DNA of 54,936 nt. It comes from an uncultured bacterium (GTDB lineage: Bacteria > Bipolaricaulota > Bipolaricaulia > RBG-16-55-9 > DRJF01). Below are positions 39,375 through 42,037 of this stretch, piece after piece. A program made the translations under genes and the position numbers. The stretch is from NCBI GenBank assembly GCA_913053845.1, contig CAJXGD010000009.1, positions 1 to 54,936 of the forward strand, read 5' to 3'. The first letter of the stretch is position 1. Each line of letters opens with the position of its first letter. The notes beneath the pieces are model-generated. The model saw only the letters and a list, made by a program, of their open reading frames with translations, was not told the origin of the DNA and did not search any database.

Positions 39375-39758
39375 GATTGCCTCCATCTCACAGTGAGGAA
39401 TTTAGCACTGGATCAACGAGCCAGTTTACCCGACCCGCTAGCCAGATGGCAAGCGCAGTGTTCTTGCGTCTATGAGAGCTTAGCATAAGGGCATATAGGA
39501 CCGGCTTTAAGAATATGCCGTCTGAGAGGCTATCAATTTGCTTTCGAGGCGGGTGGCACTTTCCTAAACACTGGCCAACCGGTGCTGTCGGGACTGAGCG
39601 ACTCTGGGTGCGATATCGCCCTCTAGGTCCGTTAAATGCAGAGATAACAACGCATTGGCCCCGACCGCCCCGCCGATAACCCGCTCGCTTTGGGCCTAGG
39701 CCCCCGAGCTCCGACTTTCCTTTCTATTGATCTTCGTTGTTGGAAGGGGACGGGGTAG
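39375..39758. other. Intergenic stretch with no recognised feature
   Basis: About 380 bases between prfA and the IS630 remnant. I see no gene, RNA or clear terminal inverted repeat. It may hold the lost left end of the insertion sequence. Confidence 0.5.
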
Positions 39759-40311
39759 GTATAATCACTGGAATGAGACCTAAAGGCAGTGCAGCAGAGT
39801 TGGAAGTACGTCGTCGGATTGGGGGCAGATTGCTGCAGCAAGGCAAGGGCGTGCGCGAGGTAGCGCGTCTGGTGGGGGCCTGGCCCTCTTCGGTCAGTCG
39901 CTGGAAACAGGCCCTGGAGCAAGGGGGCCTGGAGGCGCTGAAGGCCAAGCCACATCAGGGGCGTCGGCCCCGACTGCAGCCGGAGCAGAAGCAGCAGCTG
40001 GTACAGGTTCTGCGGGCCGGTCCACAGGCGGCGGGATTTGCCACCGATCTGTGGACACTGGCGCGGGTGGCACAACTGATCGAGCGTTTGTTTGGAGTGA
40101 GCTATCATCCGGGCTATGTTTGGTATTTGCTGCGCGCTATGGGCTGGAGTTGCCAGAAGCCGGAGCGGCGGGCGCGAGAGCGGGACGAAGCGACCATTGG
40201 CACCTGGCGCCAGGAGGAGTGGCCCCGGATCAAAAAAAAGCCCGGCGCGAGGGGGAAAGCATCGTTTTGATCGACGAAAGTGGCTTTATGCTCCAGCCGG
40301 TGGTGCGCCGC
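39759..40311 (+). mobile_element. IS630-family transposase, 3' truncated, with programmed -1 frameshift
   Basis: ATG 39773 opens a frame with the IS630 helix-turn-helix half (GKGVREVARLVGAWPSSVSRW, then FGVSYHPGYVWYLLRAMGW) ending at 40270. The DDE half continues in the -1 frame (IVLIDESGFMLQPVVRR), reached through the slippery A-AAA-AAG at 40234-40240. After VVRR the transposase is cut off at about 40311 and runs into unrelated toxin-antitoxin sequence, so the catalytic domain is incomplete and the element is dead. A TATAAT lies just upstream of the ATG. Confidence 0.8.
40234..40240 (+). promoter_or_regulatory. -1 ribosomal frameshift signal of the transposase
   Basis: The heptamer A-AAA-AAG is positioned in the zero frame as X-XXY-YYZ, at the end of a run of eight A. 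Slipping back by one joins the helix-turn-helix frame to the DDE frame, as in other two-frame insertion sequences. Confidence 0.6.
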
Positions 40312-40431
40312 AGCCGGCAGGCCTCCCACGCCGAGGCGGCCCAGGACCTGCTCAGCCTGAACGTGGGACCGCTGCCTCCACTGGAAGAGCTCCAAGAGGA
40401 GATCACCGATGCCTTTGCCGCGGAGGACTGA
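40312..40431 (+). pseudogene. C-terminal remnant of a VapB-like antitoxin
   Basis: In frame with the truncated transposase, the last codons read AAQDLLSLNVGP and EELQEEITDAFAAED before TGA, resembling the acidic tail of an antitoxin. Its end overlaps the ATG of the PIN-domain remnant by 23 bases, the spacing usual for vapBC pairs. The DNA-binding N-terminus has been replaced by the insertion sequence. Confidence 0.45.
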
Positions 40432-40656
40432 AGCCAAGCTCTACTTCCTCGATACCAACCTGATCGTCTACGCCCTGGGGCGCTCGCCGGTTACCAGCAG
40501 AAACAGCAGGATTTCAACGATCGGCTGATTGCCCAGGCCATGCGGGTGCAGGGGATCACGAAGATCGTGACCGCCGATCGCCGCTTTACCTGGATCAAGG
40601 GAATCCGACGCCTCGATCCACCAGCGCTAGCCGCACAACTGGAAAAGGCCTCCTAG
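40409..40656 (+). pseudogene. PIN-domain (VapC-like) toxin, internally deleted
   Basis: The N-terminus AKLYFLDTNLIVYALGR carries the first PIN aspartate, then the frame changes. In another frame the C-terminal part continues as DFNDRLIAQAMRVQGITKIV, then TADRRFTWIKGIRRLDPPAL, which holds the later PIN acidic residues. About 70-80 central residues are missing. VapC toxins are RNases; this copy cannot fold into one. Confidence 0.7.
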
Positions 40657-40695: not shown

Positions 40696-41181
40696 CTACG
40701 GCACCAGCTCAGAGAAGCCATCGGCCGCTTGCTGCCAGTAAGAAAGACCGGCTTCGGCCTGCCAGCCGGGCTCTCGAACGCGGCGCAGATAGACCAGCGT
40801 GCCCAAATGATAGAAAACGTGTTGGGTGACCCGCTTCACCGTCCAGGCCAAGCTCAGCGGCCCTCGCTTCGTCGCAACTTGTTGCTTGGACGCTTCCGGA
40901 CCGGCTTCTTCCACCGAGCGCACCAGCAATGTCTCCATATCACGGAGAAAAGCCAGAGTATTCTCCAAAGCATCGCCCTCCGGCCAGTCGGGCACGCTAT
41001 AGCCCAATATACTCAGCCAGTAGCGCTCGGCTCCGCCTAAGTGCACCAACAGTCCCTGAATAGACTTCACCTGCTCGGCCGGCTTCCAAACAGCATCCTG
41101 CTGCGCCAAGCCCTCCGCAGCTTGATAGACGCACTGCCTGGCCAGCCGGTAGGTCGCCAAGAGTTCCGCTGAAGCTGCCAT
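40696..41181 (-). CDS. DinB-family protein
   Basis: Four-helix DinB/YfiT-like protein of 161 aa. Putative metal-ligand histidines are in LLVHLGGAERYW and VFYHLGTLVYLRR, near their usual places. Members are metal-dependent hydrolases or thiol transferases; the specific reaction is unknown. It is on its own, minus strand, next to the IS630/VapBC wreck. Confidence 0.75.
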   Translation of the reverse strand: MAASAELLATYRLARQCVYQAAEGLAQQDAVWKPAEQVKSIQGLLVHLGGAERYWLSILGYSVPDWPEGDALENTLAFLRDMETLLVRSVEEAGPEASKQQVATKRGPLSLAWTVKRVTQHVFYHLGTLVYLRRVREPGWQAEAGLSYWQQAADGFSELVP

Positions 41182-41363
41182 GATGAACAGGATAGCACAG
41201 ATTGGCCGCCGCCGTCTAGACTGCTTATATGACTAGACTCAACCGGAAACATGACGGCGATCATAGCCAAACCGGGCGCGGGCGACTATTATTACCTTGA
41301 CTCCTAGGCAGCCTGCCTGCCCAAGAGCCAAGCTACTGACAACTCACCTCCTTGGAGGGCTTG

Positions 41364-41442
41364 GGGTGAGCCAGAAGCTCCGAGAGGAGCGCTGGCGGTT
41401 TTTACTCGCGCCCGCGAGGTTTTTCCCGCCGGTGGCTCATCC
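41364..41442 (+). ncRNA. Unclassified structured RNA followed by a terminator
   Basis: A nested fold is visible. P1 pairs GGGTGAGCCA (41364-41373) with TGGCTCATCC (41433-41442), with one G-U pair. Inside are P2, GCTCC-GAGA-GGAGC (41377-41390, GNRA-type loop), and P3, GGCGG/CCGCC (41394-41398 with 41426-41430), which through a symmetric U-rich internal loop holds P4, CTCGC-GCCC-GCGAG (41405-41418). An intrinsic terminator follows at 41459-41492. I match no riboswitch or known RNA class. It lies upstream of the stress-protein gene, which has its own promoter after the terminator, so a free-standing small RNA is as likely as a cis-regulator. Confidence 0.5.
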
Positions 41443-41458
41443 TACGTGTAAGCCTTCG

Positions 41459-41492
41459 GCCGGGCGACCTCGCGGTCGCCCGGCTCCTTTTT
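41459..41492 (+). terminator. Intrinsic terminator
   Basis: Perfect 11-bp stem GCCGGGCGACC/GGTCGCCCGGC (41459-41469 and 41474-41484) with TCGC loop, then TCCTTTTT. Oriented to the plus strand, ending the structured RNA. Confidence 0.85.
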
Positions 41493-41517
41493 GTCATCCA
41501 GCCGCCGCCAATTGGAT

Positions 41518-41546
41518 TAGACAAGACAGCTTGAATCGGGGATAAT
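41518..41546 (+). promoter_or_regulatory. Promoter of the universal stress protein gene
   Basis: TAGACA (41518-41523), 17-base spacer, GATAAT (41541-41546), 47 bases before the ATG and downstream of the terminator. Confidence 0.55.
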
Positions 41547-41593: not shown

Positions 41594-42037
41594 ATGTTTA
41601 AGCGAATTCTCTTGCCGACCGACGGTTCACAGGGAGCCTCTGAGGCGCTCAACTGTGCTACGGCGATCGCGCGCAAGTTCGATAGTGAACTGGAAGTGGT
41701 CTTCGTCACCGAGCCTCACCTCATGCTCACCGCGCCTTACTCCGAATCCATCTTGATGGACGCGCTGCAAGCCACCCGCGAGGAGGGCGAGAACGTCTTG
41801 GCCCAGGCGACCGAGACGGCACGCCAATCGGGAATTGATCAGGTCAAAAGTGCGATGCTGGAGGGCCATCCGGCCGAAGAGATCGTCCGCTATGCCCGCG
41901 AGCACCAGATGGATATCATCATCATGGGCACCCATGGGCGCCGAGGGATCAATCGGATGCTCTTGGGCAGTATCGCCGAAGAGGTCGTGCGCACGGCCTC
42001 TATGCCGGTGATGACCGTGCGGGTGAGCGGTGGTTAA
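41594..42037 (+). CDS. Universal stress protein (UspA family)
   Basis: Single-domain Usp of 147 aa. N-terminal RILLPTDGSQGASEAL and the C-terminal ATP-binding signature IMGTHGRRGINRMLLGSIAEEVVR, ending MPVMTVR. These dimeric proteins bind ATP and support stress survival. ATG has AAAGGGG upstream. It is followed 27 bases later by a DsbA-like gene, probably in the same transcript. Confidence 0.92.
   Translation: MFKRILLPTDGSQGASEALNCATAIARKFDSELEVVFVTEPHLMLTAPYSESILMDALQATREEGENVLAQATETARQSGIDQVKSAMLEGHPAEEIVRYAREHQMDIIIMGTHGRRGINRMLLGSIAEEVVRTASMPVMTVRVSGG

Follow-up and report, generated by a model that had tools for sequence, protein, structure and literature searches.

Non-coding RNAs with an anti-Shine-Dalgarno (anti-SD) sequence have arisen in unrelated lineages, as exemplified by the alpha-r14 RNAs and OLE RNA. 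The alpha-r14 or cuckoo small RNAs of Alphaproteobacteria (NfeR1, Rfam RF02344 ar14) are reported to be trans-acting, keep their anti-Shine-Dalgarno motif unpaired while the stems vary, and are composed of three hairpins, each with CCUCCUCCC (PMC10746234). In OLE RNA, which is also non-coding, bS21 is reported to bind a sequence that mimics the 16S anti-SD exactly (PMC12054373). Here, we analyzed an RNA encoded in a window of 54,936 nucleotides (the whole stretch of DNA under analysis). Judged from its sequence, this RNA belongs, as a divergent member, to a family of small non-coding RNAs that had not been recorded before. A covarying RNA family absent from Rfam is thereby added to a phylum in which little RNA biology is known. 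Like the alpha-r14 RNAs, the family shows an anti-SD element, and we propose the same working type. Unlike them, it has a core with a U-rich internal loop, and its element either precedes an outer helix on the 5' side or lies in a single apical loop. The Rfam model of ar14 matches neither the window RNA nor its relatives; a signal beside one copy from the deeper branch of the family reaches 20.6 bits against a cut-off of 58.8 and lies outside the core. Like OLE, the family carries the letters of the 16S anti-SD. Unlike the family, OLE is an RNA of about 600 nucleotides from another phylum with another fold, and no Rfam match to it was found here.

The window RNA is located between two divergent genes. 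The earlier note, made from the letters of the window, had placed a structured RNA at 41364-41492 in a gap of 410 bases without coding sequence. The gap between the starts of the DinB-like gene (41181) and of usp (41594) comprises 412 bases, and an 82-residue ORF with a TTG start, which covers it, is unconvincing as a gene. The features of the locus are given below, where R1 and R2 denote covariance models built from the single window sequence and from homologous copies, respectively.

40696-41181, minus strand: DinB-like gene, divergent neighbor of the RNA
41264-41292, plus strand: weak candidate promoter of the sigma-70 type for the RNA, TAGCCA-17-TATTAT (9 of 12 consensus positions)
41346-41353, plus strand: anti-Shine-Dalgarno-like ACCUCCUU, conserved at the 5' side of the family RNAs (first positions of R2)
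41355-41361, plus strand: 5' strand of the outer closing helix P0, GAGGGCU, forming seven pairs with 41451-41457, including a G-U pair
41362-41372, plus strand: 5' strand of P1, pairing with 41434-41444
41377-41390, plus strand: P2 hairpin with a GAGA tetraloop (fold)
41391-41398, plus strand: 5' strand of P3, pairing with 41426-41433
41399-41425, plus strand: family core, consisting of the U-rich internal loop (41399-41404 / 41419-41425) and the P4 hairpin (41405-41418) (fold, R1 and R2 matches)
41434-41444, plus strand: 3' strand of P1 (fold)
41451-41457, plus strand: 3' strand of P0, AGCCUUC (R2 match, fold)
41458-41492, plus strand: intrinsic terminator, a 12-pair stem-loop (41458-41485) and a T run (terminator scan)
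41518-41546: promoter-like site for usp, 3' of the terminator (10 of 12 consensus positions)
41594-42037, plus strand: usp, downstream of the RNA and followed by a DsbA-like gene

Two promoter-like sites were found in 1.3 kb, where 0.5 are expected. The second one is consistent with the suggestion that usp has its own promoter after the terminator, and the terminator itself was described correctly except for its stem, which has 12 pairs instead of 11. On the DinB side of the RNA, the gap also contains a near-perfect inverted repeat of 37 bases (41296-41332), which may serve the divergent promoters as an operator. We also observed that the P4 stretch 41408-41420 is complementary at 12 of 13 positions to the stem and loop of the terminator (41467-41479), a possible alternative pairing. 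Further upstream, at 39737-40463, overlapping plus-strand pieces with HTH_33/HTH_32 domains appear to be a broken transposase remnant.

The stable fold of the RNA is real. The stretch 41364-41500 folds at -75.1 kcal/mol, compared with a mean of -53.9 (sd 3.72) for shuffled sequences (z = -5.70), and none of the 200 shuffles was as stable. The four nested helices proposed previously, P1, the GAGA-capped P2, P3, and P4, are all present; P1 contains nine pairs (11 in a longer fold) rather than ten. The U-rich internal loop separating P3 and P4 was also recovered, with the strands UUUUUA and GUUUUUC forming a 6 × 7 loop that is not strictly symmetric. The proposed boundaries were too narrow, as the conserved unit begins earlier: 41364-41492 leaves out the 5' ACCUCCUU and the outer helix of seven pairs.

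The sequence had been noted to fit no recognized riboswitch or RNA class, and a scan with Rfam together with a covariance model from homologues had been suggested. Rfam detected only a tRNA in the whole window and nothing near the cut-off in the gap, and no Rfam family corresponds to the window RNA or its relatives. Among other candidates, 6S RNA (RF00013) exceeded the cut-off in none of 40 genomes and was missing from the window, and no tmRNA was found by Rfam in the window or by ARAGORN and Rfam in the loci of the deeper branch, where ARAGORN made one odd "tRNA-???" call in L252. A DNA search of 60 relatives returned no copy of the window RNA outside its own genome. A mobile repeat was rejected, as the search of the own genome gave only the window RNA itself and the palindromic terminator. 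Over 100 genomes of the phylum (one class), R1 produced no convincing match. Its best match outside the own genome (L024) was taken as chance because it lies inside an SbcD-like coding gene and only the outer helices match. A relaxed R1 search of the order found a weak match in the own genome (L111, G000:C15) with the same U-rich internal loop hairpin. When searched with this G000:C15 stretch, most genomes of the order gave the hairpin at approximately 75-94% identity, several of them more than once, and the own genome yielded another full-length copy. The copies share a common plan: ACCUCCU(U), a long outer helix, e.g., GAAGAGCUUGGCC / GGCCAAGCUCUUC, variable hairpins, and the near-invariant core of CCAGGGUUUUGCCC, a hairpin and GGGAUUUUUCCCCAG, often with a final hairpin closed by a tetraloop or a T-loop (GGUUCGAAUCC). 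The exact core pattern had no match in viral contigs. Searches of the literature and Rfam found no published description of the family, a literature search on small RNAs in Bipolaricaulota returned no paper, and none of the papers listed for RNA in Acetothermia or Bipolaricaulota bore either name.

For the suggested covariance model (R2), we took 17 of the 26 available copies and excluded the window RNA. Nine copies (L137, L147, L148, L149, L151, L152, L153, L154, and L155) were left out mainly because their closing helix aligned badly. The best R2 match in the whole window is at 41346-41461 on the plus strand with 27.4 bits (E = 1.8e-4), followed by a runner-up of 8.0 bits, and the best score in 819 kb from 80 loci of other organisms was 14.2 bits. 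These control loci are distant ones taken from a search with the DsbA-like protein, which gave no close relative among the 80. Since the first base of the match is that of ACCUCCUU and its end lies beyond the outer helix, the window RNA almost certainly belongs to the family, as a divergent member. The outer helix of the family (GGCUUGG / AAGCC) has its counterpart at 41355-41361 / 41451-41457. The family shows ACCUCCU(U) immediately before this helix or CCUCC in the apical loop, and the window RNA has the former as ACCUCCUU. From the core, CCAGGG-UUUU-R ... RUUUUU-CCCCAG, the window RNA retains the U tracts and the flanking G/C, with continuous pairs in place of the 2 × 2 bulge. Its apical loop is GCCC and lacks CCUCC. 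The 3' hairpin (T-loop/T-arm-like or with a tetraloop) before the closure of the outer helix is missing, leaving only 41445-41450 there; some other copies (L131, L201) likewise lack it or have a shorter form. R3, the model of the deeper branch, does not match the window RNA.

This divergence raises the question of whether the window copy might be a decaying paralogue without present function in a family that itself works, which we regard as distinctly improbable. The losses of the bulge and the 3' hairpin would agree with decay, as would the score, which is among the lowest of the full-length R2 matches, and the lack of any orthologue in the DNA search of 60 relatives and the R1 searches of the 100 genomes and of the order. 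However, decay would be expected to break helices, and all of them are intact and unusually stable. ACCUCCUU, the outer helix including its G-U pair, and the strong terminator have also been kept. We consider the window RNA probably functional at present.

Covariation is present in the family. We aligned 17 copies by sequence alone, without fitting them to a model (A5). On this alignment, RNAalifold predicted 23 pairs, 9 of which have changed on both sides. With the named structure, 89.2% of the cells pair and 11 of 29 pairs show changes on both sides. The covariation score of 0.238 was reached by none of 500 shuffles (0.157 ± 0.012), and it dropped to 0.110 or less when the partner was slid. 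Against this, 395 of the 500 shuffles reached the number of further pair types, and 19 of the 500 reached the number of double-change pairs. In the model-fitted alignment of 59 rows (A6), which takes in a few antisense or doubtful rows (L158 plus, L182 minus, L184 plus, and L177), 26 of 29 pairs show changes on both sides, with a score of 0.401 versus 0.136 (0.097 or less when slid); in helix 1 of the family, these are 12 of 13 pairs.

ACCUCCUU spells the anti-Shine-Dalgarno tail of 16S rRNA, and TCACCTCCTT occurs once in the window versus 0.14 expected. In a transcript starting at 41342, the predicted probability of being unpaired is 0.93-1.0 for ACCUCCUU. For a transcript from 41299 (fold of 41299-41492), four of its eight bases fall below 0.12, i.e., the element would be half paired. 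A core related to 41399-41425 is present in 52 distinct copies, which were collected by a regular expression from the fetched loci of the deep and shallow branches, excluding the window and leaving copies that do not fit the expression uncounted. ACCUCC stands 5' of the core in 30 of these 52, CCUCC in the apical region also in 30, both in 12, and neither exact string in four. The anti-SD thus occurs at either position in 48 of the 52 copies compared with a shuffle mean of 10.3 and a maximum of 18, where the copies are related and are not 52 independent trials. That the element is kept while its position shifts between the 5' tail and the apical loop suggests that the element itself is functional, and so does the survival of CCUCCU in the deep-branch copies L252, L254, and L257, in which the U-rich loop is replaced. 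In the short copies L200, L201, and L203, the 5' ACCUCCUU is missing and the apical loop contains ACCUC(C), as though either position could serve. On the minus strand of 41317-41354, the complement of ACCUCCUU reads AAGGAGGUG / AAGGAGGU and is followed by TTG and a frame of 12 codons, possibly by chance; this reading from 41354 downwards was rejected, as the other copies give it no support.

The family shows the sequence with which the ribosome grips mRNA, and it may therefore control which messages get translated. Our main reading, to which we assign a probability of about 0.5, is that the window locus encodes a stand-alone trans-acting non-coding RNA that would pair with Shine-Dalgarno sequences. 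The divergent member of the multi-copy family of the order would be a transcript of approximately 150-195 nucleotides, whose structured body (the outer helix, the GNRA hairpin, and the hairpin with the U-rich internal loop) would present an unpaired ACCUCCUU. Through this element, the RNA could bind one or more mRNAs at their Shine-Dalgarno sequence and so keep the ribosome off, and the U-rich loop hairpin might be a docking place for a partner such as Hfq, which is encoded. Of the 36 long ORFs of the window, 28 have a Shine-Dalgarno-like motif ahead of one of their first four starts, compared with 15 of 36 in the control. The sequence data establish the fold, the place of the RNA in the family, the covariation, the scatter of the copies near dissimilar genes, and the retained anti-SD; that the RNA is transcribed, pairs with mRNAs, and has a protein partner is our inference.

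The main alternative, possible but unlikely, is that ACCUCCUU and the apical CCUCC mimic the 16S tail so as to titrate or dock a ribosomal protein or an assembly factor (bS21, Era) rather than mRNAs. Several copies carry AUCACCUCCUU, which exceeds the CCUCC core, and the tRNA-like D-arm/T-arm module around the apical CCUCC in the deeper branch hints at contact with the translation machinery. The reported binding of bS21 to the CCUCCU mimic of OLE (PMC12054373) would fit as well. However, the mimic of OLE is paired, whereas ACCUCCUU is predicted to be single-stranded in the shorter transcript.

The U-rich internal loop could also be considered the functional heart of the RNA. ENE triple-helix elements possess opposed U tracts between G-C stems. 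The family likewise opposes its U tracts between G-C stems, and U4-5 opposite U5 is the most conserved feature of the copies from the order, so that the loop might act as an ENE-like clamp on poly(A) or an A-rich strand, protecting the RNA or its target. Unlike ENEs, the family is bacterial and no A-rich partner was found in it, nor was a conserved one seen in the copies read. The loop is replaced in L252, L254, and L257 while CCUCC persists. We regard such a clamp as very improbable.

The RNA had been tied to the downstream stress-protein gene. A structured domain that, together with its terminator, precedes usp on the same strand would suit a cis-acting leader (riboswitch or attenuator) of a usp-dsbA operon, with 41408-41420 predicted to be capable of pairing with 41467-41479 as an antiterminator. 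We nevertheless find such a leader hardly credible, because the promoter-like site of usp follows the terminator, no Rfam riboswitch matches, and the upstream regions of usp differ from the window RNA at 15 further loci of the order and carry no such RNA. There is also no conserved association with one downstream gene. Among the 79 matches of the R2 genome search, we surveyed the gene context of 29 copies; their flanking genes are mutually unlike, and the relatives lie in either orientation, with the nearest crude downstream ORF on the strand of the RNA in 12 of 28. This dissimilarity speaks for action in trans rather than in cis and makes the adjacency to usp incidental; the family is not special to the stress gene, and its mechanism is testable. 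The stand-alone RNA of our main reading had been raised in the earlier note as an independent small RNA. The window RNA indeed looks like an independent gene, as far as sequence can indicate, because the neighbors of its relatives vary and the family covaries. Terminator-like signals follow 12 of the 52 family copies, compared with 4 of 52 in the control, so the clear terminator of the window RNA is not a family rule.

A c-di-GMP-I aptamer is located 38-128 bases upstream on the same strand in four of the 56 family copies scanned with Rfam, two of the four belonging to one genus:

L187:2751-2842 (G000:C15): c-di-GMP-I aptamer, with the RNA starting from 2970
L204:1692-1778 (G012:C23): c-di-GMP-I aptamer upstream of a family copy
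L155:1182-1264 (G005:C10): c-di-GMP-I aptamer upstream of a family copy
L208:512-600 (G010:C244): c-di-GMP-I aptamer upstream of a family copy

The Rfam scan of the window revealed no such aptamer at the window copy. Riboswitch control of a trans-acting RNA is known in principle from Rli55 and EutX.

R2 detected the family in all 19 genomes of the order, with at least 76 matches at E ≤ 0.01, including copies of the deeper branch, and with one to seven per genome (mostly three to six) among the matches listed. Outside the order, three weak matches were obtained. The window copy is not among the matches listed, 30 of the 1538 first-look candidates of its genome (G000) having been scored. Within the six genomes of genus g8, three sub-types (L141-L144; L133, L140, L145, L146, and L150; L147, L149, L151, L152, and L154) recur in four, five, and five genomes, respectively, a pattern that favors separate, vertically inherited genes. 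Some R2 matches span only positions 24-134 and represent the deeper branch (alignment A7), in which 13 of 39 pairs show changes on both sides. In its plan, a short acceptor-like helix is combined with a D-arm-like GGCAUGGUGCC, with a long arm that holds the U-loop core and has an apical loop containing CCUCC, and with a T-arm (GGGGUUCGAGUCCCC). R3 found this branch in every one of the nine families of the phylum and in 58 of its 100 genomes, which usually gave a single strong match. At a stricter cut-off and with up to 191 outgroup genomes added, 51 of 291 genomes had a match, all 51 within the phylum, and none of the sampled genomes outside it. Rfam recognized none of the deeper-branch and other family RNAs, and the call in L252 was the only one by ARAGORN.

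YrlA is a bacterial Y RNA with a tRNA-like module. Like YrlA, the deeper branch has an outer helix and a module of D-arm- and T-arm-like hairpins; unlike YrlA, the window RNA is without a T-arm, and no Rfam match was obtained. A Y RNA was rejected, as a TROVE/Ro (Ro60/Rsr) protein was detected in none of 30 genomes, including the own genome, with a positive Deinobacterium control. The deeper-branch RNA is perhaps both the ancestor of the window RNA family and a housekeeping RNA. A wider scenario, which we consider doubtful, would see phylum-specific RNAs that mimic the ribosome: a near single-copy ancestor with a tRNA-like elbow and an anti-SD loop might have given rise to the multi-copy regulatory set of one order, some members of which stand directly behind c-di-GMP riboswitches; a second messenger would then set the level of an RNA competing with 16S rRNA for mRNAs or initiation proteins. 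With a family whose anti-SD shifts in position and that includes a tRNA-like branch as well as copies linked to riboswitches, it would become possible to test directly whether translation is controlled by mimicry of the rRNA tail. The own genome also contains an RNA of the deeper branch, L248 (G000:C1:62662-62815, minus strand), which is tRNA-like and has the apical CCUCC loop.
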